Below, one piece after another: positions 39,393 through 61,070 of a stretch of DNA of 64,000 bases. This stretch comes from a virus, in IMG/VR virus record IMGVR_UViG_3300036770_001423, positions 30,297 through 94,296 of that record, one strand, 5' to 3'. Both the position numbers and the translations under genes were made by a program. Position 1 is the stretch's first letter, and each line of letters starts with the position of its first letter. The notes beneath the pieces were generated by a model. That model was not told the DNA's origin, made no database searches, and saw nothing but the letters and a program-made list of their open reading frames with translations.

Positions 39393-39394
39393 AA

Positions 39395-39604: not shown

Positions 39605-39605
39605 T

Positions 39606-39806: not shown

Positions 39807-39931
39807 GATCCATTCTCCTCATTCAAACATCGCGTATAACGCTCTACAATTGATTATGAGCCACTTTCTCCTCAATCCTATCCGAATGTATTTGGATGAA
39901 TTATCGTGGCTTAGAATGCTTCCTATTGCGT

Positions 39932-40180: not shown

Positions 40181-40267
40181 GTTTATTCCTCCTACAATGC
40201 TCTATGAGCGATTATTTATGTTACCCTAAGCCAACGTATGGCTTAGGCTGTAAAACGTCTTAGAATT

Positions 40268-40289
40268 GATTCTAGAGCGTTTAAATGCT
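40268..40289. repeat. 22-bp repeat, copy 2
   Basis: Contains TCTAGAGCGTTTAAATGCT. An identical 22 bp copy lies at 32419-32440. Here it overlaps the 3' end of the HNH gene. Confidence 0.85.
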
Positions 40290-40658: not shown

Positions 40659-40689
40659 CGGTAAATCCTCATTCATTTCGATGTGAACA

Positions 40690-40718
40690 ACTCTACTCTC
40701 ATCTGTTCCTTGTGTCAA
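40690..40718 (-). promoter_or_regulatory. sigma-70 promoter, leftward
   Basis: On the minus strand, TTGACA (40713-40718), a 17 bp spacer and TAGAGT (40690-40695). Confidence 0.75.
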
Positions 40719-40752
40719 CAAGAATTTTAAATAATTCTATAAACGATTCTGC

Positions 40753-40781
40753 TTGACATGAGATGTGTGTATGTGTAGAGT
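40753..40781 (+). promoter_or_regulatory. sigma-70 promoter, rightward
   Basis: TTGACA (40753-40758), a 17 bp spacer and TAGAGT (40776-40781), divergent from the promoter at 40690-40718. Confidence 0.75.
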
Positions 40782-40812
40782 GGTTGCATGTTCAAACGTA
40801 TGGAGAAATTAC

Positions 40813-41088
40813 ATGAATAATAAAATTGAGAAGGGTTGTTTGGCTATTGTTGTGAATAGCTATTGTCCTGAGAACTTAGGTAAGGTTGTCACTGTTGGCA
40901 ATTACATCGGAACAGAAATCGGATTCTTAATGAAGGATTTGTGGGAAGTTGACAAACCGATGTTAGCATCCGATGGTAAGTATTATTTTCTTCAGCGAGA
41001 AAATTCGTTGATGAGGATTGACAACTACGACGAAGATATGTATACTCTTGAACAGATTGAGCAATTAGAGAAGGAGAAAATGGAATGA
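40813..41088 (+). CDS. hypothetical protein, 91 aa
   Basis: The start (MNNKIEKGCLAIVVNSYCPEN) follows TGGAGAAATTAC. The sequence KGCLAIVVNSYCPENLGKVVTV is typical of a small SH3-like barrel seen in phage proteins of unknown function. The end is helical (LEQIEQLEKEKME). It is the first gene of the rightward block. Confidence 0.65.
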   Translation: MNNKIEKGCLAIVVNSYCPENLGKVVTVGNYIGTEIGFLMKDLWEVDKPMLASDGKYYFLQRENSLMRIDNYDEDMYTLEQIEQLEKEKME

Positions 41089-41234
41089 AAACAGTAACAG
41101 TTGATGCACAAAATCTGTGGTACATCTTATCTGTATATGAAAGTTTGTTGGATAAAAATAGTCCTTTTGCGTCAGGGGATTTAGCGATTATCCAAAAGAT
41201 GAAACAACAAATTAAAGATGAGGAGAACAAGTGA
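41085..41234 (+). CDS. hypothetical protein, 49 aa
   Basis: A helical peptide (LWYILSVYESLLDKN ... IIQKMKQQIKDEENK). It overlaps both neighbours by ATGA. No family is recognised. Confidence 0.6.
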   Translation: MKTVTVDAQNLWYILSVYESLLDKNSPFASGDLAIIQKMKQQIKDEENK

Positions 41235-41431
41235 TGAGTGATTTAATGACTGTTTGGTTTGCGTTTAACGTTGTGTTTGGTATATGGTCTGTTAAGAACT
41301 GGATTACTTGGGGTGTTGCTTTCTTTGGTGGTCACACTTTCCATCAGAACACAGCAGGTAAAATGTTAGATTTAATTGTTCTGTCAAGTTGTTTAGCTCA
41401 ATATTTAATTGTGAATGGAGGTGTTGTATGA
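41234..41431 (+). CDS. membrane protein, 65 aa
   Basis: The ATG is eight bases after GAGGAG. Two hydrophobic segments (MTVWFAFNVVFGIWSV and MLDLIVLSSCLAQYLIV). Function unknown. Confidence 0.6.
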   Translation: MSDLMTVWFAFNVVFGIWSVKNWITWGVAFFGGHTFHQNTAGKMLDLIVLSSCLAQYLIVNGGVV

Positions 41432-41610
41432 TTAAGACATTTGTGTTGATTATGGTTATTAGTAACGGCTACAAAGCTGGAGTATCTTCTGTATCTACAG
41501 AGTTTAATAGTCAAGAAGCTTGTCTTGCAGCGCTGAATACTATTATTAATGAAACAAATCGTACCAATTATACTCGTGTTGTTGGTAGTGGCTGTTTTCC
41601 AAAGGAATAA
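41428..41610 (+). CDS. small exported-like protein, 60 aa
   Basis: A short hydrophobic start (MIKTFVLIMVISNGYKAG) and two cysteines (EACLAAL, GSGCFPKE). It overlaps the preceding gene by ATGA. Possibly a periplasmic peptide. Confidence 0.6.
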   Translation: MIKTFVLIMVISNGYKAGVSSVSTEFNSQEACLAALNTIINETNRTNYTRVVGSGCFPKE

Positions 41611-41612
41611 AC

Positions 41613-41828
41613 ATGAACAAAGCTCCTGCTGAAGCATTGGAAGAACTAATCATCCTGTCAGGGATGTACCGTGTACAGCTTGGATTGGTGGCTAAGCTTT
41701 CAGGGGCTATCTTAGCTAATGATAAACACAGAGCTAAGAAGTTGTGGAGTGAGATGACAGAAATTAAGAGTTATCTTTGTGACATATTCACTTGTGATAT
41801 TGAGGAATATTTGTTTAGTTACTCATGA
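41613..41828 (+). CDS. hypothetical helical protein, 71 aa
   Basis: All-helical (AEALEELIILSGMYRVQLGL ... AKKLWSEMTEIKSYLCDIF). No family is recognised. Confidence 0.6.
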   Translation: MNKAPAEALEELIILSGMYRVQLGLVAKLSGAILANDKHRAKKLWSEMTEIKSYLCDIFTCDIEEYLFSYS

Positions 41829-41894
41829 ATAGCCGTCCATACGGCTTCCATTTAACAATAACCATGATACACTATAAGTGTAGGAGGAAAGATT

Positions 41895-42068
41895 ATGCAA
41901 GTAAAAATTCATTGGCCTAACGGTGATTATCACACGAAATCAACTTTCAGCACTACTGGTGAACACACGGATTTATTAGTGTTAGCCATGCGAGATGTAT
42001 TGGTTCTGTCATTGACATACGATGTGATTATTGACAATGGCGTAATTACTTTTGTTGAGAAGGCTTGA
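41895..42068 (+). CDS. hypothetical protein, 57 aa
   Basis: ATG after TAGGAGGAAAGATT. A small beta-rich protein (MQVKIHWPNGDYHTKSTF ... DVIIDNGVITFVEKA). Its stop lies inside the next promoter. Confidence 0.6.
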   Translation: MQVKIHWPNGDYHTKSTFSTTGEHTDLLVLAMRDVLVLSLTYDVIIDNGVITFVEKA

Positions 42069-42099
42069 CAACCGAGTAAAAGGTGGTAATATCTACCAC
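42065..42099 (+). promoter_or_regulatory. promoter embedded in a small inverted repeat
   Basis: TTGACA (42065-42070), a 16 bp spacer and TAATAT (42087-42092). GTGGTA/TACCAC (42083-42088, 42094-42099) surrounds the -10 box. Confidence 0.65.
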
Positions 42100-42606
42100 A
42101 AGTAAGTAGTTTTAAATTATCTGTTGGGTTCACAACACTGACGTTTTCTTAGCGGAGAACGTCAAAGCCTCTAAGGTTTGAGCTAAATACAAATCCGCTA
42201 TACAGTAAAGCACTCCCTGATTCACAGTGACATCCTGTAGTTATAAGTAGTGAACGTAGGCAATTACATACAAGGTCTTAAGACGGACTCCGAATCAGCG
42301 ACAATACAACCTTCTTTGGTGAGTTATTCGGATAAACACAATTTAAAGGGTGATGGTTTCCTGCTCCAATTGATTATTCATTATCAAAGGCAGGCTATGC
42401 AGGGTGGTGGCTTCCCTCCAGAGATAACAGATCGTAATGTGATTCTCTAGACAATTAGCATCGTGATAAATTGTATGTAATATATCTCATATAGATTAGA
42501 TAATAGCTGATAAAGATACAGGCGAACAGAGCGTAATAGCTAAGGGCTTTTCCTTACTATCACCCTATCGTCTAATGAACAGATCCGTCCAAAATTTGAG
42601 GTATGT
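42100..42606 (+). other. long structured leader or ncRNA candidate upstream of HNH gene
   Basis: About 500 bases between a promoter and the HNH start. Visible pairings are TGTTG/CAACA around GGTTCA, GACGTTTTC/GAGAACGTC (loop TTAGCG), an exclusive alternative TAGCGGA/TCCGCTA, CAAAGCCT/AGGTTTG, and CTGATTC/GAATCAG. A 66-codon GTG frame (42250-42450; ends AMQGGGFPPEITDRNVIL) lacks a ribosome site and may or may not be coding. I could not match it to a tRNA, group I intron or known riboswitch. Confidence 0.35.
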
Positions 42607-43371
42607 ATGGAAACAATTAATTTATATGATTATTTAGAATTGAGAGGTGCGAGAGCCTTATCTGATGCAGAAGCTGAAGTCTTAGGTGTTGAGCTAGTTT
42701 CAGGCTGGGTGAAGAAAGCTAATGCTATAAAAATAGACAAAATAACGGCAGTACAGGCACTGTTATACGGAGCTAAAAGTAAGTCAAATAACACTTCTCG
42801 CATGAAAACAATAGCTGAAGGTTTATTGGCTGGGAAAAACTTTAGTGATTTCATAGAAGTTACTGGTCTTGATAGACACGTAAAGAAGGTAAAAGCGCCT
42901 AAAGTAAAACGTTGTAAGATGAAGCCGAGTAACGTAATAAAGAAATTGGCAAAGTTTTGTAACATGCCATCAACTGCTGACGCCGATGCTTTGTGTGTAA
43001 TAGCTTCCGATAAGCTAAAGTTTACACCAGACTGGACTAAAGGTTTGGAATTTGTTGCTGCACAACTGTTTGAAGAATCAAAGAAGTACCAACAAGAGGT
43101 TGTTCCAGACAAGTTTATTAAAAAGACGGATGACGATGAATTCTTTAGAAGTCAGGCTTGGAGAACTTTAAGGTATAACGCATTTAGTCTACATGGCAAT
43201 AATTGTCAGTGTTGTGGAGCGAAAGCGGGTAACGGTGTCGTTCTCCACGTAGACCATATTCTTCCTAGGTCTACTAATCCTGAACTAGAATATGACATCA
43301 ACAATCTTCAAATCCTTTGTGAAGATTGTAACATTGGTAAATTACACCTGAAAACTGACGACTGGCGTTAG
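42607..43371 (+). CDS. HNH homing endonuclease
   Basis: The 254-residue protein ends in a textbook HNH fold: EFFRSQAWRTLRYNAFSLHG, NCQCCGA (first Cys pair), HVDHILPRSTNPELEYDINNLQILCEDCN (H-N-H and second Cys pair, residues ~215-245). The N-terminal ~170 residues are helical and Lys-rich (KVKAPKVKRCKMKPSNVIKK), probably DNA-binding. GAGGTATGT precedes the ATG. It sits alone after a ~500-base structured leader. Confidence 0.88.
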   Translation: METINLYDYLELRGARALSDAEAEVLGVELVSGWVKKANAIKIDKITAVQALLYGAKSKSNNTSRMKTIAEGLLAGKNFSDFIEVTGLDRHVKKVKAPKVKRCKMKPSNVIKKLAKFCNMPSTADADALCVIASDKLKFTPDWTKGLEFVAAQLFEESKKYQQEVVPDKFIKKTDDDEFFRSQAWRTLRYNAFSLHGNNCQCCGAKAGNGVVLHVDHILPRSTNPELEYDINNLQILCEDCNIGKLHLKTDDWR

Positions 43372-44121: not shown

Positions 44122-45429
44122 ATGATGAGTAATTACAAAGCAATTATCGCAAAGATTGATCGTGTGGCACCTATCCCTAATGCAGATCGTATTCATTTAG
44201 CCACAGTGCTTGGTGAGTCTGTGATTGTGAGTAAAGAGTGGGAAGTAGGTAAAATTGGTGTGTTGTTTGTAGCAGGTACACAGTTGTCTGAGGCATTTGC
44301 ATCAAATAACAACTTGTTCCGTGATTCTGAAAAGAACGCAGACAAAACAAAGAAAGGTTTCTTTGAAGATAGTCGCCGTGTACGAGCACAACCGATGTTG
44401 GGTGTTAAGTCTGAAGCATTCTTTGCTGATTTATCTAGCCTTTCATTTGCTGGTGACATTACAACTTTAAAACTGAATGACTCGTTTGAAGAATTTAACG
44501 GTGTAAAGATCTGTAATAAATATTTAAATGAAAAGACATTACGTGCAATTGGTAACGCGAATACAAAAGCACGTAAGAAAGATGCTACGCCATTATTTTT
44601 TGAACACGTAGAAACGTGTCAATTTAAACAGGGTATGCAAGCTATTCAGAAAGGTGACTTGGTTAGTATTCAGGCAAAAGTACATGGTACGAGTCAGCGT
44701 GTAGCTAAAACAACTGTGGTTAACGACTTACCTAAATGGAAAGAGTTAGTTAATTCATTGTTCAGCAAGGTTGGTTTACAAGTACCTTTTGCTGAGACAC
44801 GAACAGATTATGTTGTAGGTACTCGTCGTGTCGTATTGACAGAAGGTAAAGAAGGTTTTCATGGTTCTGAGCAGTTCCGCTATGAAATTCTTGAACAACT
44901 TAAACCGTACTTAACAGACGGGATGACTTTGTATCTTGAAGTTGCTGGTTACGCTAATGGTAAACCGATTATGTCTCGACACAACACAAAAGATTTGAAG
45001 AACAAAGAAATTAGTAAGAAATACGGTGACGTAGTAACATACTCGTATGGTTGTAAAGAACATGAAAACCGTGTACACGTATATCGTATTACGATTACTC
45101 AGCCTGACGGAACAGCTTTAGATTTTACACAGAAACAGTTAGTTGATTGGTGTAATGCTCGCGGTATTTTACCGGCGTTGGATGTGGTAGAACCGTTTGT
45201 TTTTGATGGTGATTATGAAGCATTAGCTGCCAAAGTTGAAGCTCTTACAGAACGTCCTGAAGTGTTAGGTGAAGATTTTATCGATCCTAGTCATGTTAGT
45301 GAAGGTGTTATTGTTCGGGTAGATCGCGGTACATTGACGCCGTTATTTCTGAAGTCTAAGAACTTCTACTTCAAAGTGATGGAAGGTATTGCTTCGGAGA
45401 AAGAAGTAGACGTTGAAGATGCCGCATAG
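44122..45429 (+). CDS. RNA ligase with N-terminal OB-like domain
   Basis: The 435-residue protein shows nucleotidyltransferase motifs: motif I SIQAKVHGTSQR (catalytic Lys ~186), motif III-like TLYLEVAGYANG, motif IV VSEGVIVRVDR and motif V FLKSKNFYFKVMEG near the C-terminus. The N-terminal ~150 residues (IDRVAPIPNADRIHLATVLG, EWEVGKIGVLFVAGTQLSE) form an OB-like module, as in the Deinococcus Rnl5-type RNA ligases. It would reseal cleaved RNA, plausibly tRNAs cut by host anticodon nucleases. The next operon encodes the matching end-healing kinase/phosphatase. Confidence 0.85.
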   Translation: MMSNYKAIIAKIDRVAPIPNADRIHLATVLGESVIVSKEWEVGKIGVLFVAGTQLSEAFASNNNLFRDSEKNADKTKKGFFEDSRRVRAQPMLGVKSEAFFADLSSLSFAGDITTLKLNDSFEEFNGVKICNKYLNEKTLRAIGNANTKARKKDATPLFFEHVETCQFKQGMQAIQKGDLVSIQAKVHGTSQRVAKTTVVNDLPKWKELVNSLFSKVGLQVPFAETRTDYVVGTRRVVLTEGKEGFHGSEQFRYEILEQLKPYLTDGMTLYLEVAGYANGKPIMSRHNTKDLKNKEISKKYGDVVTYSYGCKEHENRVHVYRITITQPDGTALDFTQKQLVDWCNARGILPALDVVEPFVFDGDYEALAAKVEALTERPEVLGEDFIDPSHVSEGVIVRVDRGTLTPLFLKSKNFYFKVMEGIASEKEVDVEDAA

Positions 45430-45432
45430 TAG

Positions 45433-45467
45433 TTGACAACAAAAGCCTAGTCTGATAAGCTAGGCTT
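45433..45467 (+). promoter_or_regulatory. promoter overlapping a terminator-like hairpin
   Basis: TTGACA (45433-45438), 17 bp and TAAGCT (45456-45461). The arms AAGCCTAG (45443-45450) and CTAGGCTT (45460-45467) form a perfect 8 bp stem ending at the expected start site, so only read-through RNA from the ligase gene contains the hairpin. Confidence 0.7.
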
Positions 45468-45490
45468 CATTGTTTACAGAGGAGAATAAT

Positions 45491-46390
45491 GTGAAAGCAG
45501 TTATTTGTGTAGGGATTAGTGCATCAGGGAAGTCTACATTTGCTAAAGAATTGGTTGCGCAAGGTTGGGTGGACGTAAACCGTGATGACATTCGGTTTGA
45601 AATGTTCTGCAATGGTGTTCGTGATTGGAGTTTGTACAAGTTTACTAAAGAACGTGAAAATCGCGTAACCCAAGCACAAGAAAGTATGGTCGATGGTGCT
45701 AGTGTTATGGGGATGAATGTTGTTATTTCTGACACAAACATTAACGACAAAACTCGTAACTTTTGGATTAAACGTCTTACAGACCTCGGATATGATGTTG
45801 AGTTAAAATACTTCGACATTGATTTGATTGAAGCGTTAGAACGTGACGCTAAACGTTCTAATGGTGTAGGCTACAAAGTAATTACAGACCAGTATCGTCG
45901 TTATATGAAATTGCGTCATGGAGATAATTATCATAAACGTAAAGAAGGTTTAGTAAGAGCTATCATTGTGGATATTGATGGCACACTAGCTGACATGGAA
46001 GGTATTCGTAAACCATTTGACTGGGATAAAGTTCACTTAGATAAACCAAGAGAACACATTATTCGGATTGTAGAAGATTACTTCTTTGAAACTCCTGAGC
46101 GATGTGAAGTAATTTTTGTATCTGGTCGTGATTCCGTTTGCATGGAGTCTACAAGACGCTGGTTATCAGAACACGTAGGGGATTGGACAGATAGTCGTAT
46201 GTTACTTATGCGCCCACAAGGAGACATGCGAAAAGATACATTAGTGAAGAAAGAGATTTACCACAAATACATCGAAGGTCGTTATAATATTGACTACGTA
46301 ATTGATGACCGAGATCAAGTTATCCGCATGTGGGAATTTGAATTAGGTCTGGATGTTATCAAGGTTGGTAAACTTCACAACGAGTTTTAG
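45491..46390 (+). CDS. polynucleotide 5'-kinase/3'-phosphatase
   Basis: The GTG start is supported by GAGGAGAATAAT; the nearby ATG is followed by a stop. The 299-residue protein has an N-terminal P-loop kinase (VICVGISASGKSTFAKELV, with the NRDDIRFEMF strand) and a C-terminal HAD phosphatase (IIVDIDGTLADMEG, ~residues 158-171; FVSGRDS; YVIDDRDQVIRMW). This is the T4 Pnk domain order. It heals RNA or DNA ends to 5'-phosphate and 3'-OH for the RNA ligase next door. Confidence 0.92.
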   Translation: MKAVICVGISASGKSTFAKELVAQGWVDVNRDDIRFEMFCNGVRDWSLYKFTKERENRVTQAQESMVDGASVMGMNVVISDTNINDKTRNFWIKRLTDLGYDVELKYFDIDLIEALERDAKRSNGVGYKVITDQYRRYMKLRHGDNYHKRKEGLVRAIIVDIDGTLADMEGIRKPFDWDKVHLDKPREHIIRIVEDYFFETPERCEVIFVSGRDSVCMESTRRWLSEHVGDWTDSRMLLMRPQGDMRKDTLVKKEIYHKYIEGRYNIDYVIDDRDQVIRMWEFELGLDVIKVGKLHNEF

Positions 46391-48795: not shown

Positions 48796-49081
48796 ACAAA
48801 AACGTCAAGAGATTCTCGACATCTTAGAATATTTCAAATTTGATGTGATGTTCACTAATTCTGTTATGGAATTGAAGAATGAAAATGGTCAGGAATTTAA
48901 GCACTGTCATATTAGTTACGGATATGGTGATAATCATGGAGGCTATTTCTCTATATTAGAATCTGAGAGTGCTGGTAATGTTTATGACTTCCCATTATCG
49001 GGTATTCGTAGTGACGACTTTGAGAAAGTGAAGGGTGCATTCTGGTTATATTGTAAATTGGTTAAGGAGTATGTGGATTGA
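48785..49081 (+). CDS. hypothetical protein, 98 aa
   Basis: The start (MTIEQKRQEILDILEYFKFD) follows CAGGAGTATGAAA. Mixed alpha/beta, with KHCHISYGYGDNHGGYFSIL in the centre. It is coupled to the primase-helicase by TTGA overlap. No family is recognised. Confidence 0.6.
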   Translation: MTIEQKRQEILDILEYFKFDVMFTNSVMELKNENGQEFKHCHISYGYGDNHGGYFSILESESAGNVYDFPLSGIRSDDFEKVKGAFWLYCKLVKEYVD

Positions 49082-50958
49082 GTGGTAATCGAATTAATAA
49101 AACGTTTCACTGTATTGCCAGTGAATTTGACGATAAAAAACCTTGTAACAGTTCTGATGCTCTGAGTATCTATCAGGAAGAAGATGAACAAGGGAATGTA
49201 ACATATAACGGTTACTGCTTTAGTTGTGGTCAAGGGTTTAGTGCTAACCATGTTCATAATAGTAGTCATGCTTTAGAGCTTGGTGTAGAGGAAGGTGTTG
49301 TTAAACACAAACATTCTTTTGCTTTGGTGGCTAAAGCAGAACCACTTACAAATGACCAGATTGGTCAACTGAAGAAGTCTATTGGTTTTACGGATCGTCC
49401 ATATCGTAGCTTGCAACCTGAATGGTTGCGTTTCTTTGGTCACATGGTAGAACGAAACAAATATGGTGAACCAGTATCAATCTACTACCCAGAAACTGAA
49501 GAAGGTAAAGTAACTGGATTTAAGATTCGTTATTTACCTAAATCATTCAGTAAGGTTGGTCGAACAGGTAAACATTCACAGTTGGCTGGTCAGTTCGTCT
49601 ACAAATCAGCAGGTAAGCGAGTGTTGATTGTTGGTGGTGAAGGTGACATGGTTGCTGCTTACGGTATGCTGAAGAAGTATGGTGTCCATGTTGTTAGTCC
49701 TACTTGTGGTGAAGGTAGTGCAGCAAGCCAATGTCAAAACAACTACGATTTCTTAGATCGTTATGAGGAAATCTATGTTGGTTTAGACAACGATACTGCG
49801 GGTAAAGAAGCTACAGAGAACATGCTGAAGATTCTACCGTCAGAGAAAGTGAAGATTGTATACTGGTCAGCTAAAGACCCACACAAGCTGTTGGAAGATG
49901 GTAGTGGTGATCAGATTATCAAAGACTTCTTCAATGCTAAGTCATATGTCGAAGCTGGTTTGAAGTCATCCAATGAAATCATGGCTGATGTAGAAGAAGT
50001 GTTGACAGCACCTAAAATCACTTTGCCGTCTTATATGTGGCGATTAGAAAAGATGATGAAACGTGCATTCTCTACCAACGGTAGGATTGTCAACATCATA
50101 GGTTCTACATCGTGTGGTAAGTCTACACACGTAAACAATATGATCTATCACTGGATATTCGCTGAAGGAATGAAACCTTTAATCATTTCTCTTGAAGCCA
50201 CCGCTGGTGAATATGCTGTAGACTTATTATCTTTACATATGCAGAAGAACCTTGACTGGTTTGATGACGGTATGGATGCTTGGAACTACTTACAACGCGA
50301 CGATGTGAAAGCGTTGAATGAGAATCTATTCCACGATAATGAATACAATGAACGTTTCCGTATTCTTGATGATCGCGAAGGTAACATTGAATCACTGAAG
50401 AAGTTGATTGAACGTGGTGTAAAGCAATACGATTGTAATATTGTAATTATTGACGTTCTGACAGACTTGGTTCGTTTTCTACCACAAGATGAGCAAGAGA
50501 AGTTCTTGGCTTGGGAAAGGAACTTTGTTAAGTCCGGTGTGAGTATCGTAAACGTATTACACACGAAGAAGCCTGAGCGAGACAAGGAAGGTAAACTTCG
50601 TAAGACAACGGAGTACGATGCTTTAGGTACAGGATCTTTCGTACAGTCAGCTCATATTAACATTGTTATAAATCGCGATAAGATGGAAGCTTGTGAAATT
50701 GAGCGCAATAGCACATACGTAGAAATGCCGAAGTGTCGTAGAGGAACAACAGGTGATGCTGGTGTATGGTATTATGACGGTGCTACACGACAAGTGTATG
50801 ATAGAGATGATTTCTTTAGTCAGAGTAGGCAAGTAAATCCTGAATACGTACAACAACCAGTTATTTTGGATGAAATACCTATTCCGCCATTCGACCCAGA
50901 TACAGCAGAACCGGAACCTCCTTATGACGAAAGTGAGGTATTTGAATCAGATTTTTAA
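49078..50958 (+). CDS. DNA primase-helicase, T7 gp4-like
   Basis: The 626-residue protein begins at TTG (overlapping the preceding stop). It has an N-terminal zinc-binding region (FHCIASEF, then NGYCFSCGQGF), a Toprim primase core (VLIVGGEGDMVAAYG ~185-199 and YVGLDNDTAGKE ~237-248) and a C-terminal DnaB-type helicase. The helicase shows Walker A IGSTSCGKSTHVN (~340-352), CNIVIIDVLTDLVRF and GTGSFVQSAHINIVINRD. It unwinds the fork and primes lagging strands. The acidic Pro-rich tail (FDPDTAEPEPPYDESEVFESDF) fits a polymerase-docking end like that of T7 gp4. Confidence 0.92.
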   Translation: MSGNRINKTFHCIASEFDDKKPCNSSDALSIYQEEDEQGNVTYNGYCFSCGQGFSANHVHNSSHALELGVEEGVVKHKHSFALVAKAEPLTNDQIGQLKKSIGFTDRPYRSLQPEWLRFFGHMVERNKYGEPVSIYYPETEEGKVTGFKIRYLPKSFSKVGRTGKHSQLAGQFVYKSAGKRVLIVGGEGDMVAAYGMLKKYGVHVVSPTCGEGSAASQCQNNYDFLDRYEEIYVGLDNDTAGKEATENMLKILPSEKVKIVYWSAKDPHKLLEDGSGDQIIKDFFNAKSYVEAGLKSSNEIMADVEEVLTAPKITLPSYMWRLEKMMKRAFSTNGRIVNIIGSTSCGKSTHVNNMIYHWIFAEGMKPLIISLEATAGEYAVDLLSLHMQKNLDWFDDGMDAWNYLQRDDVKALNENLFHDNEYNERFRILDDREGNIESLKKLIERGVKQYDCNIVIIDVLTDLVRFLPQDEQEKFLAWERNFVKSGVSIVNVLHTKKPERDKEGKLRKTTEYDALGTGSFVQSAHINIVINRDKMEACEIERNSTYVEMPKCRRGTTGDAGVWYYDGATRQVYDRDDFFSQSRQVNPEYVQQPVILDEIPIPPFDPDTAEPEPPYDESEVFESDF

Positions 50959-50967: not shown

Positions 50968-52596
50968 ATGAATTGGTTTGTTTTTGATCTCGAAACTTAC
51001 CCGAATATATTCACTTGCTGTGTTGCTGATATGCAAACACGTAAGATGAAACTGTTTGAGATTTCTTCACGCAAAGACCAGCGTAATGACATGTTTGAAT
51101 ATTTGCGTGGTGTTCGCAGACAGAATGGAATTCTCGTGGGTTACAATTCACTTTCTTTTGATGAACCAGTGTTGCAGAATCTGTTGAAGAATAAGACCAT
51201 GACAGTTGGTGAGATTTACCACTACGCCATGAAAGTTATTCAGTCAGGTTACGGTGATAACAAATGGCAGTATCAAATCAGAGAGAAAGACCGTTTCTTA
51301 CAACAGCTTGATTTGTTTAAAATGAACCATTTCGACAACAAGGCAAAGGCTACATCTTTGAAGATGATTGAGTTTAATTCACGCTCAAACAACATTGAAG
51401 ACTTGCCTTTCCCTGTTGGGAAGCACTTAACTAACGCTGAAATGGATGTGCTGTGTAAATACAACTGCCATGACGTAAAGGAAACGGTGAAGTTCTTTGA
51501 GAACTGTAAAGCTCAGATTGACTTCCGTTTAGACTTACAGAAGAAGTATGGGTTCAATGCTCTGAACTGGAACGATACTAAGATCGGTAGTGAGTTCTTC
51601 ATTATGGAGTTGGAGAAAGCCGGTATCAATTGCTATGATGGTCAAGGTAAGGCTCGTAAGACAAAACGTACATATATTGATTTAGTTGATTGTATTTTTC
51701 CATATATCAAGTTTGAGCGCCCAGAGTTCAATGCTATTCTTGAATGGTTGAAGCGTCAGCGTATTACAGAAACCAAAGGAGTGTTTTCAGATATTCCTGA
51801 ACACGAGCTTGGTGATGTTGCTAAGTATGCTCTGATGACAACCAAGCGTATCAAGTTCAAGAACAAACCAACTCAGAAAGAAATTGATGAGATGTTAAAA
51901 CAATATCCGCTAGGTTGGGTGGAAGAAATTGAACTGAAAGCTAAGTTACCAAAGAAAGATGGTGGTGGATTCAAGAAGGCTTATTGGTTCAACTATCGGA
52001 TTGCTGATGCTCTGAATGTGGTGATTGATGGGTTGTGCTACGTATTTGGTACAGGTGGTGCTCACGCTGCGGTAGAAAAACGAGTAATTGTTTCTGACGA
52101 AAAAAGAGTAATTCGTACTTTTGACGTTTCTAGTTTTTACCCTAATTTAAGTATTAAGAACAAGGTTTATCCAGAGCATTTGGGTATCGAATTCTGTGAT
52201 ATTTACGAAACGTTATACAACATGCGTAAATCTTTCGATAAGAAGTCTGCTGAAAACGCTATGCTCAAACTGGCTCTGAATGCAACATACGGGAATTCTA
52301 ACAATGAGTATAGTCCGTTTTACGATCCGAAGTTTACTATGACTATCACACTGAATGGTCAAATGTTACTGTGTAAAGCTATCGAGATGGTGCTTTCTTT
52401 ACCGACTGTAGAAATCCTAATGGCTAATACTGACGGTTTCGAGTTTATCATTGACAGAGAATACGAAGCTTTAGCTGAAGCTAAATGTAAAGAGTGGGAA
52501 GAAATGACTGGTCTAACGTTAGAGGGTGATACTTACGCTAAGATGGTTATTTCTGATGTAAACAACTACTTTAGCATTTATGAGGAAAAGAAATGA
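50968..52596 (+). CDS. family B DNA polymerase, N-terminal piece (exonuclease and palm)
   Basis: The 542-residue protein carries the 3'-5' exonuclease (FVFDLETYPN, Asp7/Glu9; VGYNSLSFDEPVL). It also has polymerase motif A RTFDVSSFYPNLSI (~383-397), motif B LKLALNATYGNSNNEYS (~430-446) and motif C LMANTDGFEF (~484-493). It stops at YFSIYEEKK, just before the thumb region. The rest is encoded from 53095, after an inserted HNH gene. It was probably one 740-residue polymerase split by mobile-gene insertion. The piece has all catalytic residues but lacks the DNA-gripping end. Confidence 0.92.
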   Translation: MNWFVFDLETYPNIFTCCVADMQTRKMKLFEISSRKDQRNDMFEYLRGVRRQNGILVGYNSLSFDEPVLQNLLKNKTMTVGEIYHYAMKVIQSGYGDNKWQYQIREKDRFLQQLDLFKMNHFDNKAKATSLKMIEFNSRSNNIEDLPFPVGKHLTNAEMDVLCKYNCHDVKETVKFFENCKAQIDFRLDLQKKYGFNALNWNDTKIGSEFFIMELEKAGINCYDGQGKARKTKRTYIDLVDCIFPYIKFERPEFNAILEWLKRQRITETKGVFSDIPEHELGDVAKYALMTTKRIKFKNKPTQKEIDEMLKQYPLGWVEEIELKAKLPKKDGGGFKKAYWFNYRIADALNVVIDGLCYVFGTGGAHAAVEKRVIVSDEKRVIRTFDVSSFYPNLSIKNKVYPEHLGIEFCDIYETLYNMRKSFDKKSAENAMLKLALNATYGNSNNEYSPFYDPKFTMTITLNGQMLLCKAIEMVLSLPTVEILMANTDGFEFIIDREYEALAEAKCKEWEEMTGLTLEGDTYAKMVISDVNNYFSIYEEKK

Positions 52597-53111
52597 TTGA
52601 CGCAGCACTCGTTAGGTCATTGTTTCATTATGACCCCGACACTGGAGTATTTAAGAGAATAGGTAGGTTGAAATGTAACGGAGAAATTACTTCTTGTGAT
52701 TTCGTAGGTACGGCTCGTTCTACTCACGGTTATTTACAGTATACTGTAAAGGATAAGACTTATGATGTACACCGGTTGATTTTCTTATACACGGACGGTG
52801 AGTTTCCTGAATGTGATATAGATCATATTGACGGTAATAGATTGAACAATAAATGGTCTAATCTCAGGAAAGTCACTAGGTCTGAAAATCTCAGAAATGT
52901 AGGAAAGAAACAAGAAAATAAATACGGGTTTACTGGTATAGGTGTACATACTCAATCTGGGAAGTACCGTGTGTTTATAGGTTCTCATCATAAGTCAGGT
53001 TTTAACACACTGGAAGAAGCTGTTGAGTATCGTCAACGATTGGAAAAGGAAATGGGTTACACTGACGATCATTTTAAACGTGAGGTATGGAATAATGAAA
53101 TTCAAAGCTAA
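52593..53111 (+). CDS. HNH-AP2 homing endonuclease inserted in the DNA polymerase gene
   Basis: The 172-residue protein has an HNH nuclease (YDVHRLIFLYTDGEFPECDI, DHIDGNRLNNKWSNLRKVT, ~residues 52-93) and an AP2-type end (YGFTGIGVHTQSGKYRVFIG). The ATG overlaps the stop of polymerase piece 1 (ATGA), and its end overlaps the start of piece 2 by 17 bases. There is no room for intron core sequence, so it is an in-gene insertion rather than an intron ORF. Confidence 0.9.
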   Translation: MIDAALVRSLFHYDPDTGVFKRIGRLKCNGEITSCDFVGTARSTHGYLQYTVKDKTYDVHRLIFLYTDGEFPECDIDHIDGNRLNNKWSNLRKVTRSENLRNVGKKQENKYGFTGIGVHTQSGKYRVFIGSHHKSGFNTLEEAVEYRQRLEKEMGYTDDHFKREVWNNEIQS

Positions 53112-53688
53112 AGGTCGTTATGAATGGAGAGATTTACCTAATCACAAGAATCATTCAGCTCTGATAGTTAAAATGGCTGTAGAGGAATTTATTCTACACG
53201 GAACAGATCCTGAAGACTTTATGAGAAACCATAAGAATTGTTTTGATTTCTGTTTAAGGGCTAAGATACCGCGCAGTAGCAAGCTTGTGATTGTAGATGA
53301 AAACGGAGTTGACCATCAGACACAGAACATTTGCCGTTATTATGTATCTAAGAACGGTGGTGATTTGGTGAAGGTGATGCCACCTTTAGCTGAGTTCAAG
53401 GAAGAACAGGTGTGGGTGAATCATCTGACAATGGAAGAAGTTACAATTTCTTCTGCTGTGGATATTGCAAAGTATGAAAAGAAAGGGTATACTTTCAGTC
53501 ATACAGTGAATACTCCTTGCGAAGACCGTAGGTTCTTCATTGAGGCTGGTTGGAAATGTAAGGTTGTGAATGACATCAACGATTTTGTATGGGATGTCGA
53601 TTATGACTATTACGTTGAACGTGCTTGGAAACTCATCAATTTTGCTGATGAAAATTCTTCACAAGAAGATGTTGACACAACAGAATAA
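53095..53688 (+). CDS. family B DNA polymerase, C-terminal piece (thumb)
   Basis: The 197-residue product starts at ATG after GAGGTATGGAATA with KFKAKGRYEWRDLPNHKNHS. This is the segment that in intact phage family B polymerases follows motif C and contains the K-x-K-G-(R/Y) primer-contacting motif, followed by SALIVKMAVEEFILHG. The remaining residues are thumb-like. With its own ribosome site it can be made separately and associate with piece 1. Confidence 0.85.
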   Translation: MKFKAKGRYEWRDLPNHKNHSALIVKMAVEEFILHGTDPEDFMRNHKNCFDFCLRAKIPRSSKLVIVDENGVDHQTQNICRYYVSKNGGDLVKVMPPLAEFKEEQVWVNHLTMEEVTISSAVDIAKYEKKGYTFSHTVNTPCEDRRFFIEAGWKCKVVNDINDFVWDVDYDYYVERAWKLINFADENSSQEDVDTTE

Positions 53689-53712
53689 CGTGCTATAATT
53701 ACTGCACGTTTT
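53672..53712 (+). promoter_or_regulatory. promoter inside a terminator-like hairpin
   Basis: TTGACA (53672-53677), 16 bp and TATAAT (53694-53699), with AACGTGC (53687-53693) and GCACGTT (53704-53710) flanking the -10 box and TTT following. Read-through RNA would form a terminator; RNA from this promoter would not. Confidence 0.8.
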
Positions 53713-54024: not shown

Positions 54025-55002
54025 ATGGCTTTTAAACCAGCAAATAGTAATCAACAAGCAACACCAATGAATCCTAACATTCCGAAAGTAAATTGGAATG
54101 AACTGAACAAAGGTGTTAAAGGTGGTAGTCGCCCAGCACGAGTGTCATTAATTGTTGACTTAGGTACACAAGAACGTGAACCGTCCACTAAGGATTACAA
54201 CCCGAACGATCCTAAGCAAGTGGAATCACTTGGTAAAGGTAGTTGGGTGGAGAACGTAGGTGGTAAAGATATTCTGCACACACCACGTAAACCTGTTCAA
54301 CAAGTAGCTGTCTTAGCTGACCTGCTGAACGATGTGGTAGATTATGGTGGTGCTATTGGTAAACAACCATATCGTCTGTTGTTAAATCCATCATTCAAGG
54401 GTGACGTTAAAGGTGTTGACTTAGCTGGTTGTTACAGCTATGATGAAAATGGTAAGCGTTTGGAAGACCGTCCATTTACTTTCCATCAGCAATCTCTGTT
54501 GACTAAGTTGTCAAAAGCTACGCAGACATTAGCTGTGATTGATGGTGGTGCTGATAACATGGATGTGTCGTTGTTAGCCGGTAAAGCATTTATGGCTCAG
54601 GTTGCTGTGAATACGTCTGGTGAGAACACATACGTTAACTACAAAGGTTGTTCTGAAGTACCTCTGATTGAAGATGAAGACGGTAACGAAGCCCCTTTAA
54701 AAGTTAAGCCATTAACTAATGAAGCACGTATCATTACATTTGATACTGTTACAGAAGATGATGTGAAGTGGTTACGTGGTGATTTAGTGAAGAAGATTAA
54801 GCAAGCACTCAACTATCAAGGTAGTAAGATGCAAGCTGTTCTGGAGAATGCTTCGCCAAACGCAGCAGGAAGCTCTACAAGCGCTTCTAATGAAGAATCT
54901 AAGCCATCGCAAGGCTCAGGCAAGAAAGCTGCTGCAAAGGCTTCTCAGAACGTTGTAGATGATGTTCCGGTTGATGACTTCGACTCGGACATCCCGTTCT
55001 AG
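54025..55002 (+). CDS. ssb: single-stranded DNA-binding protein
   Basis: The 325-residue protein has a central OB-fold-like region (RVSLIVDLGTQERE, YRLLLNPSFKGDVKGVDLAG, AFMAQVAVNTSGE). A Ser/Gly/Ala/Lys linker follows, then a typical acidic SSB tail (DDVPVDDFDSDIPF). That tail binds replication partners. It lies directly after the polymerase operon. It is longer than cellular SSBs, as often in phages. The call is by the tail and the context; the OB fold is inferred. Confidence 0.8.
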   Translation: MAFKPANSNQQATPMNPNIPKVNWNELNKGVKGGSRPARVSLIVDLGTQEREPSTKDYNPNDPKQVESLGKGSWVENVGGKDILHTPRKPVQQVAVLADLLNDVVDYGGAIGKQPYRLLLNPSFKGDVKGVDLAGCYSYDENGKRLEDRPFTFHQQSLLTKLSKATQTLAVIDGGADNMDVSLLAGKAFMAQVAVNTSGENTYVNYKGCSEVPLIEDEDGNEAPLKVKPLTNEARIITFDTVTEDDVKWLRGDLVKKIKQALNYQGSKMQAVLENASPNAAGSSTSASNEESKPSQGSGKKAAAKASQNVVDDVPVDDFDSDIPF

Positions 55003-55003
55003 T

Positions 55004-55492
55004 ATGAACGTCTGTAACTTCTGCGGAGAGGCTAAACCCCTCTCCGAATTTTATGAATGTAATAAAACTAAGTGTAAAATGTGTGTAAAAGCTGCTTCAA
55101 GAAAATATCGAGATAATAACCTTGAAAAGGTCAAAGCATACGACAGAAACCGTCCGAACCATAAAGAAAGGATTGAACAAAATTCTCAAAAAGCTAAGGC
55201 GAAGCGACTGGAAGGAGACCCCGATTTTATTGAGTACGAAAGAAATCGTGTTCGTGAATATAGATCGCGGAATCCAGAAAAATACAAAGCTCAGTGTGCT
55301 GTTAATAACGCAGTGCGGGATGGGTTGTTGATGAAACCTTGTCGGTGTGAGAGGTGCGAGAGCACCACAAATATACAAGGACATCACTGGTCTTATTTAG
55401 AAGAACATTGGTTAGACGTTATTTGGCTTTGTTCGAGATGCCATGCCGACGAACACAAGAAGTTGCGAGAGCTTGGTAGAGATGTTGATTAG
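55004..55492 (+). CDS. HNH endonuclease with zinc fingers
   Basis: The 162-residue protein opens with CNFCGEAKPLSEFYECNKTKCKMCVKA (a zinc-binding CxxC pair repeated). It has a basic helical middle (RKYRDNNLEKVKAYDRNRPNH) and a C-terminal HNH-like site: CRCERCESTTNIQGHHWSYLEEHWLDVIWLCSRCHADEHK. The ATG is one base after the SSB stop. It is probably a mobile endonuclease inserted downstream of ssb. Confidence 0.8.
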   Translation: MNVCNFCGEAKPLSEFYECNKTKCKMCVKAASRKYRDNNLEKVKAYDRNRPNHKERIEQNSQKAKAKRLEGDPDFIEYERNRVREYRSRNPEKYKAQCAVNNAVRDGLLMKPCRCERCESTTNIQGHHWSYLEEHWLDVIWLCSRCHADEHKKLRELGRDVD

Positions 55493-56487: not shown

Positions 56488-56702
56488 AGTTTGTTCGTTG
56501 TCAAAGTGTCTTTAACGTATTCTCTGCTACACAAGAAGAAATCGAATTAATCCCTAAAGAATGGATTTTACCATCAAGAGAAGCTAATCCACATATTGTG
56601 TTGCTAGGCAATGAACGTGAGCAAGATTTTATTAGAACAATGTCTAATTGTTCTGAAGATGAACTTTATACGGATTACTATAGAATTGAGGTGACTGAAT
56701 GA
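56484..56702 (+). CDS. hypothetical protein, 72 aa
   Basis: A small mixed protein (KFVRCQSVFNVFSATQEEIELI) with an acidic end. ATGA coupling to the exonuclease gene. No family is recognised. Confidence 0.6.
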   Translation: MKFVRCQSVFNVFSATQEEIELIPKEWILPSREANPHIVLLGNEREQDFIRTMSNCSEDELYTDYYRIEVTE

Positions 56703-57892
56703 GTAAAGAAGACCAACACTTGTTACACTTATCTAATAAAGTGAGACAGCTTGAATATTTGTTAGAACAATCAGAAAAAGAGAATAAGCGACTCAAACGT
56801 ATTCTTGCGGAATTGAGTTTTGATGCAAAGAACTGGCTTGCTAAGCTTGGGAGAATTCAGATGAATACAATTTTAATTATAGATGGTGATGAACTAGCTT
56901 ATGTTCATGCTGCTGCTGCGGAACAACAACTGCTCGTATACAAGAATACTACTAACGGTTTTGAACACGGATTTAAGAATAAAACAGAGTTTGGTAAATT
57001 CATGTCAGGACTAACTGTTCCGGAAGATATGTACACTACAGAACTCAAACGTGTACCTGAACCAAAACAAAACGCTTTTAGTACAGTGAAAAAGAAGTTA
57101 TTATGGTTACAGAACAAATTCAATGGCGCTGCTATTGAGATTTATATTTCTGGGGACAATAACTTCCGAGATTCTTTACCTTTACCGAAACATCCAGACC
57201 CGAGCAAGTCTGGACAGTACAAAGGTCAACGTGACCCCGATACCAAACCTCTGTTACTGAACGACATCAAAGACTACTTATTCAAATACTGGAATGCTCA
57301 ATTAGTGAATGGTATGGAAGCTGATGATCGTTTGTGTATGCGTGTGTACGAAGGTTACTTGAACAAAGACGGTGATAAAATCATTGGCTTGACTCAAGAC
57401 AAAGATCGTCTTGGCAATATGGGTTATTGGTATGACTATATGAATGACACAGAAGGTAATGGTCAACCACAGTTCATTGACGGTTTAGGTAAGCTGTGGT
57501 TGGATACATCAAAGAAAACACCTAAGTATACAGGTGAAGGTAGGAAGTGGTTGTATTGGCAATGGATTGTTGGTGATCCAGTAGATAATTATAACCCGCG
57601 AGATGTTGCCACATCATTAGGTTTAAAGTTGAAACGTTTTGGCGATAAGACAGCTTTTGATTTGCTCGAACCGTTACAATCAGACAAAGAATGCTTCCAA
57701 GCTGTACATGATTTGTATCTGTCTTGGTATGGTTCTGATAAGTTTAAATACACTGCTTGGGATGATGTGGAACATGAAGTAGATTATATTGACATCATGC
57801 AGTTGTATTTCGATTGCGCTAAGATGAAGCGTTTCGATGATGACAACGTTGATGTTCGTGCAGTGTTGAAGAAATTAGGAGTGATTAGTTGA
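56699..57892 (+). CDS. 5'-3' exonuclease (flap/RNase H type)
   Basis: The 397-residue protein consists of a ~54-residue coiled-coil start (HLLHLSNKVRQLEYLLEQSE) and a PIN-like 5'-nuclease. The nuclease shows MNTILIIDGDELAYVHAAAA (first Asp), WLQNKFNGAAIEIYISGDNNFRD, LVNGMEADDRLCMRV (acidic cluster), IIGLTQDKDRLGN and WIVGDPVDNYNPRDVATSLG (helix-hairpin-helix). It removes RNA primers and flaps. An internal ATG at 56861 with GGGAGAATTCAG could give a second, shorter form without the coiled coil. Confidence 0.85.
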   Translation: MSKEDQHLLHLSNKVRQLEYLLEQSEKENKRLKRILAELSFDAKNWLAKLGRIQMNTILIIDGDELAYVHAAAAEQQLLVYKNTTNGFEHGFKNKTEFGKFMSGLTVPEDMYTTELKRVPEPKQNAFSTVKKKLLWLQNKFNGAAIEIYISGDNNFRDSLPLPKHPDPSKSGQYKGQRDPDTKPLLLNDIKDYLFKYWNAQLVNGMEADDRLCMRVYEGYLNKDGDKIIGLTQDKDRLGNMGYWYDYMNDTEGNGQPQFIDGLGKLWLDTSKKTPKYTGEGRKWLYWQWIVGDPVDNYNPRDVATSLGLKLKRFGDKTAFDLLEPLQSDKECFQAVHDLYLSWYGSDKFKYTAWDDVEHEVDYIDIMQLYFDCAKMKRFDDDNVDVRAVLKKLGVIS

Positions 57893-58425
57893 ATCCTTGG
57901 GAGTCAGAACTAGGTAAAACACTATGGAAATCCTCAACACAGTTCTGGTCATTCATTCGAGGTAAGCTGAGGCTGGGATGGAACACACACCCGATGAAGA
58001 TTTCTGTAATTAACAAGAAACGTTATCAGATTAAAAACCCTAACCCTAAAGGTAAGAAACCTACAGTGTGGGGTTTTGATTGCGAGATGTGCGGTAAGAC
58101 ATTTCCAATATCTGAGGGTCAGGTTGACCACATCACCCCTGCTGGTTCGTTGACATGCAAGGAAGATATACAAGGTTTTGTAGAACGTTTATTGTGTGTC
58201 ACAGAAGATGATTTACGTCTTGTGTGCAAAGGCTGCAACAACGCTCTTGCAATGTCACAGAAACAAGGAATAACATACGACGAGGCAATTCTTGAAAAGA
58301 CGATCATTGAAATCTGTAAGGCAAAAAAGGATCGTGAATTTCTTCAGAATGCGGGAATTCCTCCCGCTTCAAATGCAACAAAACGTAAAGAACAAATCAG
58401 AGAATATCTGAAGGAGAATAAATGA
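57889..58425 (+). CDS. HNH nuclease, endonuclease VII/resolvase-like candidate
   Basis: TTG start overlapping the exonuclease stop (TTGA). The 178-residue protein has WGFDCEMCGKTFPISEGQVDHITPAGS (Cys pair, DH) and CVTEDDLRLVCKGCNNALAMSQ (Asn and second Cys pair, ~residues 60-125). Coupled so tightly to the exonuclease, with no sign of recent insertion, it is more likely a core recombination or resolution nuclease than a homing gene. That distinction is inferred. Confidence 0.75.
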   Translation: MNPWESELGKTLWKSSTQFWSFIRGKLRLGWNTHPMKISVINKKRYQIKNPNPKGKKPTVWGFDCEMCGKTFPISEGQVDHITPAGSLTCKEDIQGFVERLLCVTEDDLRLVCKGCNNALAMSQKQGITYDEAILEKTIIEICKAKKDREFLQNAGIPPASNATKRKEQIREYLKENK

Positions 58426-58940: not shown

Positions 58941-59307
58941 TATTAGTGATTTAGATGTGTGGGTAATTCGCCACAAAGAAACTAAGGAAATTATTAAAGT
59001 ACCTTCTGGGAAAACTTCTTGGCGTAAACAAAACCATGCTAAGTCTGCTTGGGCTACTTTTGGTGATTCTTACCGGGGTATCGAAGAACGTTCAAAAACT
59101 TTAGGTGTAAAACTGATTAAAGGAGATTACGGTTTTAGGTTTCCGAAATTTGATGAGCAAGATGTTTATGAATTGGCTAGTGTGAAATCTTTAAATAAAG
59201 ATTTGTTTGAGAAGTTACAACAACTGTGTGAAGAATGTATTGATTACTTACCTGAAGCAGTAAAGCAAACATATATTACCAAATTAAAGGAAATCACTAA
59301 TGACTAA
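58933..59307 (+). CDS. hypothetical protein, 124 aa
   Basis: GTG start after AAGGAGTTAATGC. The N-terminal half is basic (VWVIRHKETKEIIKVPSGKTSWRK, HAKSAWATFG), of a type seen in small phage proteins. The C-terminal half is helical (LNKDLFEKLQQLCEECIDYL). It overlaps the next gene by eight bases. Confidence 0.6.
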   Translation: MTNISDLDVWVIRHKETKEIIKVPSGKTSWRKQNHAKSAWATFGDSYRGIEERSKTLGVKLIKGDYGFRFPKFDEQDVYELASVKSLNKDLFEKLQQLCEECIDYLPEAVKQTYITKLKEITND

Positions 59308-60274
59308 TATTAAACGTAAAGAGTGGCACAATAAGGTTGACGAGTTATTAGCTGCTGGTGTACAGTCAGGTAGAACGATTGCTAAGATGTTAGGTCGTGG
59401 AAAGAGTCAAGTTAACAGTTACATCAGTAGCTTAAAACGCTCTGAGAACGATTCTGAGGCGTTATCTCAGCCGAAAGGTGCTAAGGTGTTATTCTTAGAT
59501 CTAGAGGTTTCTGCTTCGATTGTAGCGGCGTTTTCAATGTTTAAGCACTTCAGCTCACCAGATCATATTATCCAGTTTCCATATGTATTGACATATGCGG
59601 CTAATTGGTTACATGACCCTGAAGACAAGATTGAATGTTTTGGTCTGGATGATTTTGAAACATTTGAAACAGATCATCGGGATGATTTTGAATTAATCTT
59701 ACGTCTGTGGAATTTGATTGATAATGCTGACATCGTTGTTGCTCAAAACGCTCCATTTGACACAGGATGGTTCAACCAACGTTGTGCTTATCACAACTTA
59801 CCTGAACCAAGTCCGTATCGTGTTGTAGATACGTTGAAGGGTATGAAGAAGTCGATGTCGTTACCAAGTAATAGTCTTGGATATACAACAAAGTATTTTA
59901 ACCTGCCTCATACGAAGTTACATAACGAAGGTATTTCACTGTGGATTCGTTGTATGGATGGTGACAGAGAAGCTCTCAGTCTGATGAAATCTTATAATAT
60001 TGGCGATATTCCAACATTACGTGAACTGTATTTGAAGATTCGTGCGTTCATTCCGAACCACCCGAATGTTGCTTTGTATTTCGGTGAGTCAGACCAGATG
60101 CGATGCCCTACTTGTGGTGGAACACATCTTGACTTGTTAGAAGGGAAAGCGTACACTAACCTCAGTGTGTTCGATGCTTATCGTTGTAAAGATTGCGGCA
60201 CTGTGAAGCGCTCAGGTATCTCGACAACGACTACAGCAGAACGTAAGCTGCTATTGAGACAAGTGAGTAAATAG
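59300..60274 (+). CDS. DnaQ/RNase H-like 3'-5' exonuclease with HTH and zinc ribbon
   Basis: The 324-residue protein has an N-terminal helix-turn-helix (SGRTIAKMLGRGKSQVNSYIS, ~21-41). An RNase H-fold exonuclease of the YprB-like type follows (GAKVLFLDLEVSASIVAAFS with DLE, ~60-80; DIVVAQNAPFDTGWFNQR, ~148-165; KSYNIGDIPTLRELY). A C-terminal zinc ribbon (MRCPTCGGTH, YRCKDCGTVKRSG) closes it. It may proofread or process DNA or RNA ends. The HTH plus ribbon suggest sequence- or structure-guided use. Confidence 0.8.
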   Translation: MTNIKRKEWHNKVDELLAAGVQSGRTIAKMLGRGKSQVNSYISSLKRSENDSEALSQPKGAKVLFLDLEVSASIVAAFSMFKHFSSPDHIIQFPYVLTYAANWLHDPEDKIECFGLDDFETFETDHRDDFELILRLWNLIDNADIVVAQNAPFDTGWFNQRCAYHNLPEPSPYRVVDTLKGMKKSMSLPSNSLGYTTKYFNLPHTKLHNEGISLWIRCMDGDREALSLMKSYNIGDIPTLRELYLKIRAFIPNHPNVALYFGESDQMRCPTCGGTHLDLLEGKAYTNLSVFDAYRCKDCGTVKRSGISTTTTAERKLLLRQVSK

Positions 60275-60275
60275 T

Positions 60276-61070
60276 ATGAAGGTTGTGGTGAATGAAAATT
60301 CTTTCATGATACCTGAAGTATGGGAGGTAGTGGGTGGTGGTTCACACCCATTAGTTTCTTGTACGTGCAGATTGTGTGGCACCAAAAAAGATGTAGATGC
60401 TTGGGCGTTGAAATCTGGAGCAGTAAGGTCTTGTGGATGTCTGAGAAGCTTAGTCCCAAACAAGGATATTACAGGTTTGGTGACTGATTCAGGTGTCACT
60501 GTATTAGGCTACATTGGAAATTCTATTTGGAGAGTACAATACACTTGTTCTCATTTATCGGATGTTCCATCACACCTTATTCACCAGAACAAAACAGGTC
60601 TGTGTGATCGCTGTAGTAAGTCTAAAACTTGTACAGACAGAAACACATCACATGGTATGAGTGGGACTCCAGCATACAAGTCTTGGTTGTCGATGAAAAG
60701 ACGTTGTTATTCTCCTAGTAATAACCGTTATGAGTTTTACGGCGGTAAGGGGATAGTTGTATGCGATAGGTGGTTGGAGTCTTTTGAAAACTTTTATGAA
60801 GACATGGGTGATTGTCCTGCTGGTATGAGTATAGATAGAATTGACACAGCAGGTAACTACGAACCATCAAACTGTAAGTGGTCTACTGTGATAGAACAAG
60901 CCAATAATAAGACAAGCAACCTATTGTTTACTGATGGTGAACAGGTTTGGAGCTTGAGAAGGTGGTGTGACATATTCGGTAAAGATTACAAACATGTTTG
61001 GTATAAATACAGAACTTGTGGTTTACCAGTCGAACTCTTGTTTGACGGTAAAATAAAACCAGTAGCTTAA
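60276..61070 (+). CDS. HNH homing endonuclease
   Basis: The 264-residue protein begins with a zinc part (SCTCRLCGTKKDVDAWALKS, RSCGCLRS). It then carries a well-known homing pattern: SHGMSGTPAYKSWLSMKRRC, YEFYGGKGIVVCDRWLESFENFYEDMG, GMSIDRIDTAGNYEPSNCKW (~residues 125-215). A C-terminal DNA-binding helix ends it (WSLRRWCDIFGKDYKHVWYK). It starts one base after the exonuclease stop and fills the gap before the next promoter. Mobile gene. Confidence 0.85.
   Translation: MKVVVNENSFMIPEVWEVVGGGSHPLVSCTCRLCGTKKDVDAWALKSGAVRSCGCLRSLVPNKDITGLVTDSGVTVLGYIGNSIWRVQYTCSHLSDVPSHLIHQNKTGLCDRCSKSKTCTDRNTSHGMSGTPAYKSWLSMKRRCYSPSNNRYEFYGGKGIVVCDRWLESFENFYEDMGDCPAGMSIDRIDTAGNYEPSNCKWSTVIEQANNKTSNLLFTDGEQVWSLRRWCDIFGKDYKHVWYKYRTCGLPVELLFDGKIKPVA

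Follow-up and report, generated by a model that had tools for sequence, protein, structure and literature searches.

A phage family B DNA polymerase gene divided by a homing endonuclease gene at a predicted palm–thumb hairpin

How does an essential enzyme survive being cut in two? A natural test of this question is provided by a virus genome (IMG/VR record IMGVR_UViG_3300036770_001423, 94,296 bases), in which a replicative DNA polymerase is encoded in two separate open reading frames (ORFs) with a gene for an HNH endonuclease between them. The 64,000-nucleotide stretch analysed here, referred to as the window, corresponds to positions 30297–94296 of this record. The divided layout had been proposed in a sequence-only reading of the window, and the gene coordinates, the matches to PHROG 1252 (a DNA polymerase family of 663 positions) and the match to HNH_3 all agree with it. 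Very probably, the two chains are translated separately and assemble into the phage replicase, the nuclease gene having split the polymerase gene at the turn of a beta hairpin.

The two pieces make up one family B DNA polymerase gene. The characteristic motifs DxxSxYP, KxxxNxxYG and xTDG, in this order, and an N-terminal exonuclease are all present across the pieces. The best match by sequence profile is to archaeal PolB (E 5.6e-8), and Pfam PF00136 gave no match to the polymerase pieces. Motifs A, B and C, all intact, lie within piece 1, which ends about 50 residues beyond motif C (NTDG) and not directly after it, as had first been read. Piece 2 begins with MKFKAKG and does open, as described, with the K-x-K-G motif and the thumb. 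The closest described relative is the unsplit PolB of Barbavirus (Rheinheimera phage Barba1A gp022, 69% amino acid identity). Alignment with unsplit relatives, which had been advised as a check for lost residues, leaves only about one residue missing. At the joint these relatives have NSYLAIYEKDGKLKQKGAYEW, where the window has NNYFSIYEEKK followed by a stop codon, and then MKFKAKGRYEW in the second ORF; the joint is one residue shorter than in the unsplit contig L006, the added start methionine not being counted. No intact polymerase gene was found outside the window either, the polymerase family being matched, across all 94,296 bases of the record, by the two pieces alone.

The three genes are tightly packed (Table 1). 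The HNH start and the piece 1 stop share the sequence ATGA, which gives a 4-nt overlap, and the ATG of piece 2 at 53095 lies 17 nt inside the end of the HNH gene; both overlaps had been recognised from the letters and are confirmed. A longer ORF starting with TTG at 53023 is unnecessary for piece 2. Purine-rich stretches (ggag, gagga and gagg) precede the three starts, in agreement with the ribosome site initially assigned to each piece. The inserted DNA is HNH coding sequence throughout, with nothing left over.

Table 1. Coordinates of the split polymerase locus and of neighbouring features
Feature	Position	Strand	Basis and remarks
N-terminal piece of the polymerase, 542 aa, with 3'-5' exonuclease, palm and fingers; last residues NNYFSIYEEKK before the stop	50968..52596	+	ORF; phrog_1252 53-509 E 1e-144; weak PF10108 exonuclease match
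Polymerase motif A (DVSSFYP)	52123..52143	+	sequence; D and YP invariant in alignment A3
Polymerase motif B (KLALNATYG)	52267..52293	+	sequence; K434, N438, G442 invariant in A3
Polymerase motif C (NTDG)	52426..52437	+	sequence; N487-G490 invariant in A3
Freestanding HNH endonuclease gene, 172 aa, splitting the polymerase gene	52593..53111	+	PF13392 HNH_3 E 7e-15; phrog_99
C-terminal polymerase piece, 197 aa: second hairpin strand (MKFKAKG) and thumb	53095..53688	+	phrog_15833 E 1e-40; phrog_1252 512-658 E 1e-28; 88% identity to C-part of unsplit L005
Mosaic tract: piece 1 residues 368-542, HNH, piece 2 residues 1-66	52069..53292	+	change-point analysis; sliding identity
Primase/helicase (Toprim and DnaB-type)	49078..50958	+	phrog_239 E 1e-139; order as in Barbavirus (Barba1A gp023 adjoins gp022)
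Exonuclease	56699-57892		neighbour of nuclease gene
DnaQ-like exonuclease subunit	59300-60274		neighbour of nuclease gene
ORF of unknown function	54025-55002		neighbour of nuclease gene

This packing bears directly on whether the pieces are ever joined. HNH genes are often carried by group I introns, and the nuclease gene could thus belong to a self-splicing intron with an RNA core overlapping the ORF, a single polymerase being made from the spliced mRNA. A related contig lends some colour to this explanation: in L023 (6460-7450) an insert carrying a GIY-YIG ORF breaks the polymerase a few codons before the split site (KDV / NNYIAV) and is flanked by what look like exons, although no group I core is recognised there by Rfam. 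For the window, such an intron is nevertheless very improbable. With E values up to 10, Rfam detects no intron family on the coding strand at 52300–53700, nor any group I intron at the other split loci tested, whereas a search of the same type did detect a group I intron in L044 (8077-8310). The sensitivity of Rfam is limited, likely introns in the polymerase genes of L023 and L044 having been missed, and its silence alone is a weak argument. The gene layout adds to it: the overlaps of 4 and 17 nt leave no space for an intron core, as had been pointed out from the outset, and the C piece has its own start codon in all the splits listed below. As regards L044 itself (Flavobacterium phage Fpv2), a GIY-YIG-like ORF that has a spacer on either side interrupts the polymerase at motif A (2560-3560), and this insert is probably an intron unrecognised by Rfam.

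Joining of the pieces after translation has a practically negligible probability. Split inteins do exist in phage PolB, for example in phage MIJ3 (PMC6892783), but the N piece ends 8 residues past NNY and the C piece starts a few residues before KxKG, which leaves no residues for either intein half; the sequence refutes this possibility.

Where does the break fall in the folded enzyme? AlphaFold modelled the unsplit polymerase of L006 with a mean pLDDT of 92.1 and a pTM of 0.83, and a Foldseek search with the model of this unsplit homologue retrieves family B polymerases of archaea and eukaryotes (best E 4.5e-14). Two strands, 533–538 and 544–547, are connected by a turn at 539–543, which corresponds to the break. 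The break thus maps, in the model, to the tip of the beta hairpin linking the palm to the thumb. A hairpin broken at this place, with strands still able to pair, would be a plausible docking route for the two chains. Since the catalytic motifs are all in the N piece, this piece might also act alone, as a polymerase-exonuclease devoid of thumb, the C piece having a separate DNA-binding role. Very little probability is given to such a division of labour: the C piece retains the full thumb, its KxKxKG strand lies beside the N-piece strand in the model, its level of conservation is close to that of the N piece, and no unrelated domain is attached to it.

The same arrangement was found in two further contigs, with amino acid identities (N piece, HNH, C piece) of 98/97/96% for L003 and 89/85/88% for L004. 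Together with isolate genomes that carry the split, these contigs rule out an assembly or sequencing artefact. Between the window and L004, dN amounts to 0.069 for the N piece, 0.088 for the HNH gene and 0.082 for the C piece, with synonymous sites near or past saturation; dN/dS is 0.045 for the C piece and 0.054 for the HNH gene, dS being saturated for the N piece. The split is therefore old, and both pieces as well as the HNH gene are under strong purifying selection. The pieces are not dead genes, because dN is low, dN/dS is close to 0.05 where it can be computed, and synonymous sites are saturated. The locus combines two features of genes split by a homing endonuclease gene, of the kind of Aeh1 nrdA and T4 gene 60: a freestanding nuclease gene lies within a coding sequence that close relatives have in one piece, and both pieces keep the residues of the unsplit protein under purifying selection.

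How widespread is this break? Unsplit forms are the rule, as in Barbavirus, Edwardsiella phage PEi21, Klebsiella phage KpV52 and Acinetobacter phage B9, and of 80 contigs surveyed among C-terminal relatives, 70 are unsplit. Splits at the homologous site are nevertheless present in the Klebsiella phages JD001, KpV79, RCIP0055, SCNJ1-Y, BUCT791 and RCIP0091, in Edwardsiella phage PVN06, and in eight further contigs (L131, L136, L138, L140, L144, L172, L173 and L185). JD001, KpV79, BUCT791, RCIP0091 and PVN06 are among the phages that have been isolated and propagated with the split. In all these listed splits, the N piece ends shortly past the conserved NNY (NSY in some), the C piece begins within a few codons of K-x-K-x-K-G, and the nuclease gene overlaps the C-piece start by 4–17 nt. 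An ATG or GTG of its own is available to the C piece at every one of these loci, mostly with a purine-rich stretch upstream. An apparent split in L208 was discarded as frameshift-like, and a nuclease found by similarity in KB2 turned out not to be located at the KB2 polymerase. In the public annotation of JD001 (L046, JD001 35266-43093), the nuclease between the pieces is shortened to an ORF of 192 nt; the full ORF codes for 276 amino acids and begins at the N-piece stop.

The nucleases that occupy the site differ. They are of the HNH_3 type in the window group, RCIP0091, PVN06, L131, L136 and L185, of the GIY-YIG type in L144 and L172, and of the T5orf172 type with treble-clef repeats in JD001, KpV79, SCNJ1-Y and BUCT791. 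These three families may count as two superfamilies, T5orf172 being a distant relative of GIY-YIG. Because different nuclease families sit at one site, the sequences argue for several independent insertions. In a phylogeny covering 115 polymerases, at least seven changes between split and unsplit are needed on strongly supported branches, a count that pools gains and losses, and close pairs of split and unsplit sisters are observed (PVN06/PEi21, L144/L147 and L172/L171).

The isolates also help to weigh another explanation, in which the split polymerase has degenerated or is not needed, the genome being replicated by the host Pol III or by a divPolA2-type protein. Such a PolA-like protein is indeed encoded at 9814-11133 on the minus strand (26% identity to AUR84708, E 1e-23; phrog_4756). 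Motifs resembling A and C of PolA are visible in it, and proteins of this type have been reported as a second polymerase-like protein in Barbavirus; the record has no match to Pfam DNA_pol_A. Dispensability is highly unlikely, however, given the C-piece dN/dS of about 0.05 at saturated synonymous sites, the low dN of the N piece and the intact motifs A, B and C; in addition, divPolA2 is judged not to be the replicative enzyme by the authors of PMC11348598. The split isolates, for their part, lack a substitute of the kinds searched for: the records of JD001, PVN06, KpV79 and RCIP0091 contain no other match to the polymerase family and no match to PF00476, and that of BUCT791, searched for the polymerase family only, has no other match to it. 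Long-lasting purifying selection and the occurrence of the split in propagated isolates support a working two-chain enzyme.

A mechanism can be proposed for this assembly of two chains. A freestanding HNH homing endonuclease gene has entered the codons of the palm–thumb hairpin turn, bringing its own start and stop and leaving the second piece with a start codon. The ribosome would then make the N piece, the nuclease and the C piece in turn, by overlapping and probably coupled translation from one operon. The chains would dock without a covalent link, the hairpin strands pairing across the gap and the thumb packing on the palm. The nuclease, finally, would cut the unsplit polymerase genes of co-infecting relatives and be copied into them with flanking polymerase sequence.

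Traces of such exchanges can be looked for in the polymerase codons. These codons were compared between related alleles, the N and C pieces of the window being counted end to end for residue numbering. Change-point analysis of the window against the unsplit L005 gives a nucleotide identity of 0.63 inside residues 368–608 and 0.91 outside (2dlnL 236). Similar figures are obtained for L004 against the unsplit L006 (0.64 inside residues 364–599, 0.90 outside), and the difference is larger still for PVN06 against the unsplit PEi21 (0.55 inside residues 315–513, 0.98 outside), with a tract ending 4 residues past the split. Between RCIP0091 and KpV79, which carry different nucleases, the differing tract ends at the split; the RCIP0091 palm is shared with JD001 and its thumb with KpV79. 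From these comparisons, the nuclease or its immediate edge is often a recombination boundary, and the N and C pieces have been exchanged independently. Breakpoints located at the nuclease or close to it suggest homing accompanied by co-conversion. Among the unsplit alleles L005, L006, L007 and L008, too, identity falls abruptly in the palm-coding region, the rest being similar, which makes this region a hot spot of recombination whether or not a nuclease is present.

Several points weigh against the proposed assembly and its spread by homing. That the two chains meet and polymerise DNA is what we infer from sequence, and some of the synthesis could be taken over by the divPolA2-type PolA-like protein or by host polymerases. 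Divergence between the window and L004 is about even across the gene, within the tract as well as beyond it, which weakens a one-way homing into L005-like or L006-like backbones, and unsplit alleles also differ among themselves in the tract region. The direction of exchange is ambiguous, and some tracts could correspond to unsplit alleles replacing a split one; for the window group, such a replacement is as possible as the spread of the split.

Two-chain polymerases of family B are already known, and in that respect the interest attached to this locus by the sequence-only reading has to be shared out: a working two-chain enzyme is supported, whereas its novelty in itself is not, precedents being on record. 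In the Aeromonas phages 44RR and 25, the family B replicase is likewise encoded in two cistrons, genes 43A and 43B, and in phage 25 a freestanding homing endonuclease gene lies between the polymerase halves (PMC2988022). In an Aeromonas phage, the proteins made from 43A and 43B co-purify and are active as a polymerase (reviewed in PMC2988022, citing Petrov, Ratnayaka and Karam 2010). Unlike the present enzyme, these are T4-type gp43 proteins, and in 44RR the split is made by an untranslated spacer instead of a nuclease gene. The 44RR pieces have 498 and 391 amino acids, with a break well upstream of the palm–thumb hairpin; piece lengths and position differing, an identical break was rejected. 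The likeness to nrdA of phage Aeh1, also raised initially, is borne out at the gene level, physical assembly of the chains being our inference here: in Aeh1, the HNH-type mobile nuclease gene mobE divides an essential gene, the two polypeptides of which form an active enzyme (PMC2988022). There, however, the enzyme is a different one and a single insertion is described, in contrast to the recurrent site seen here. Family B polymerases encoded by two genes have also been described in Methanobacteriales (Kelman 1999) and Nanoarchaeum (Choi 2006) (PMC4104785), but these splits are attributed to intein loss or to a trans-splicing intein, with no freestanding nuclease gene reported at the site.

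Closer to the window, Barba1A gp022 shares the same primase–polymerase order but is a single ORF, with a hairpin free of any nuclease gene. The Jedunavirus JD001 has the same hairpin break, a nuclease gene in between and a C-piece start overlapping the nuclease end; the Jedunavirus nucleases differ in being of the T5orf172 type or distant HNH_3 members, and the locus is annotated merely as two polymerase ORFs. HNH genes have been proposed to relate to the splitting of genes, including that of DNA polymerase, in Vequintavirinae (PMC8472413). In Barbavirus, HNH homing genes are enriched near the polymerase and other essential genes, and nucleases lie at boundaries of genetic exchange (PMC10448857), a pattern that fits the locus. 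In the open papers searched, neither a split polymerase in Jedunavirus or Barbavirus nor a palm–thumb hairpin split or its recurrence was described. What is new is the recurrent split of one hairpin by different nuclease families.

This recurrence indicates that a replicative polymerase has apparently been cut repeatedly at one turn, in nature, without losing its function. A broader proposal can tentatively be made, and is possible rather than probable: the palm–thumb hairpin turn may be a general break point, where unrelated homing nucleases land repeatedly as the enzyme tolerates the cut; palm and thumb of the two-chain enzymes could then recombine separately, and the nuclease may act as a movable joint driving the swap of palm and thumb modules between phages. 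Matched split and unsplit relatives are available, such as PVN06 and PEi21 (98% identical outside the tract), and cultivable phages make it possible to test the reassembly of essential enzymes that are split, a possible cost of the split in speed, and the part of nucleases in module exchange. For protein engineering, the hairpin turn offers a site, already tried in nature, at which a family B polymerase can be divided.

Other genes of the record deserve a brief mention. Further HNH or endonuclease VII-type genes are found at 57889-58425, 60276-61070, 5650-6801 and 54959-55492, most of which adjoin replication genes, consistent with the enrichment of HNH genes described in Barbavirus. An RNA ligase gene and a polynucleotide kinase gene lie side by side at 44122-46390 and likely form an RNA-repair pair.
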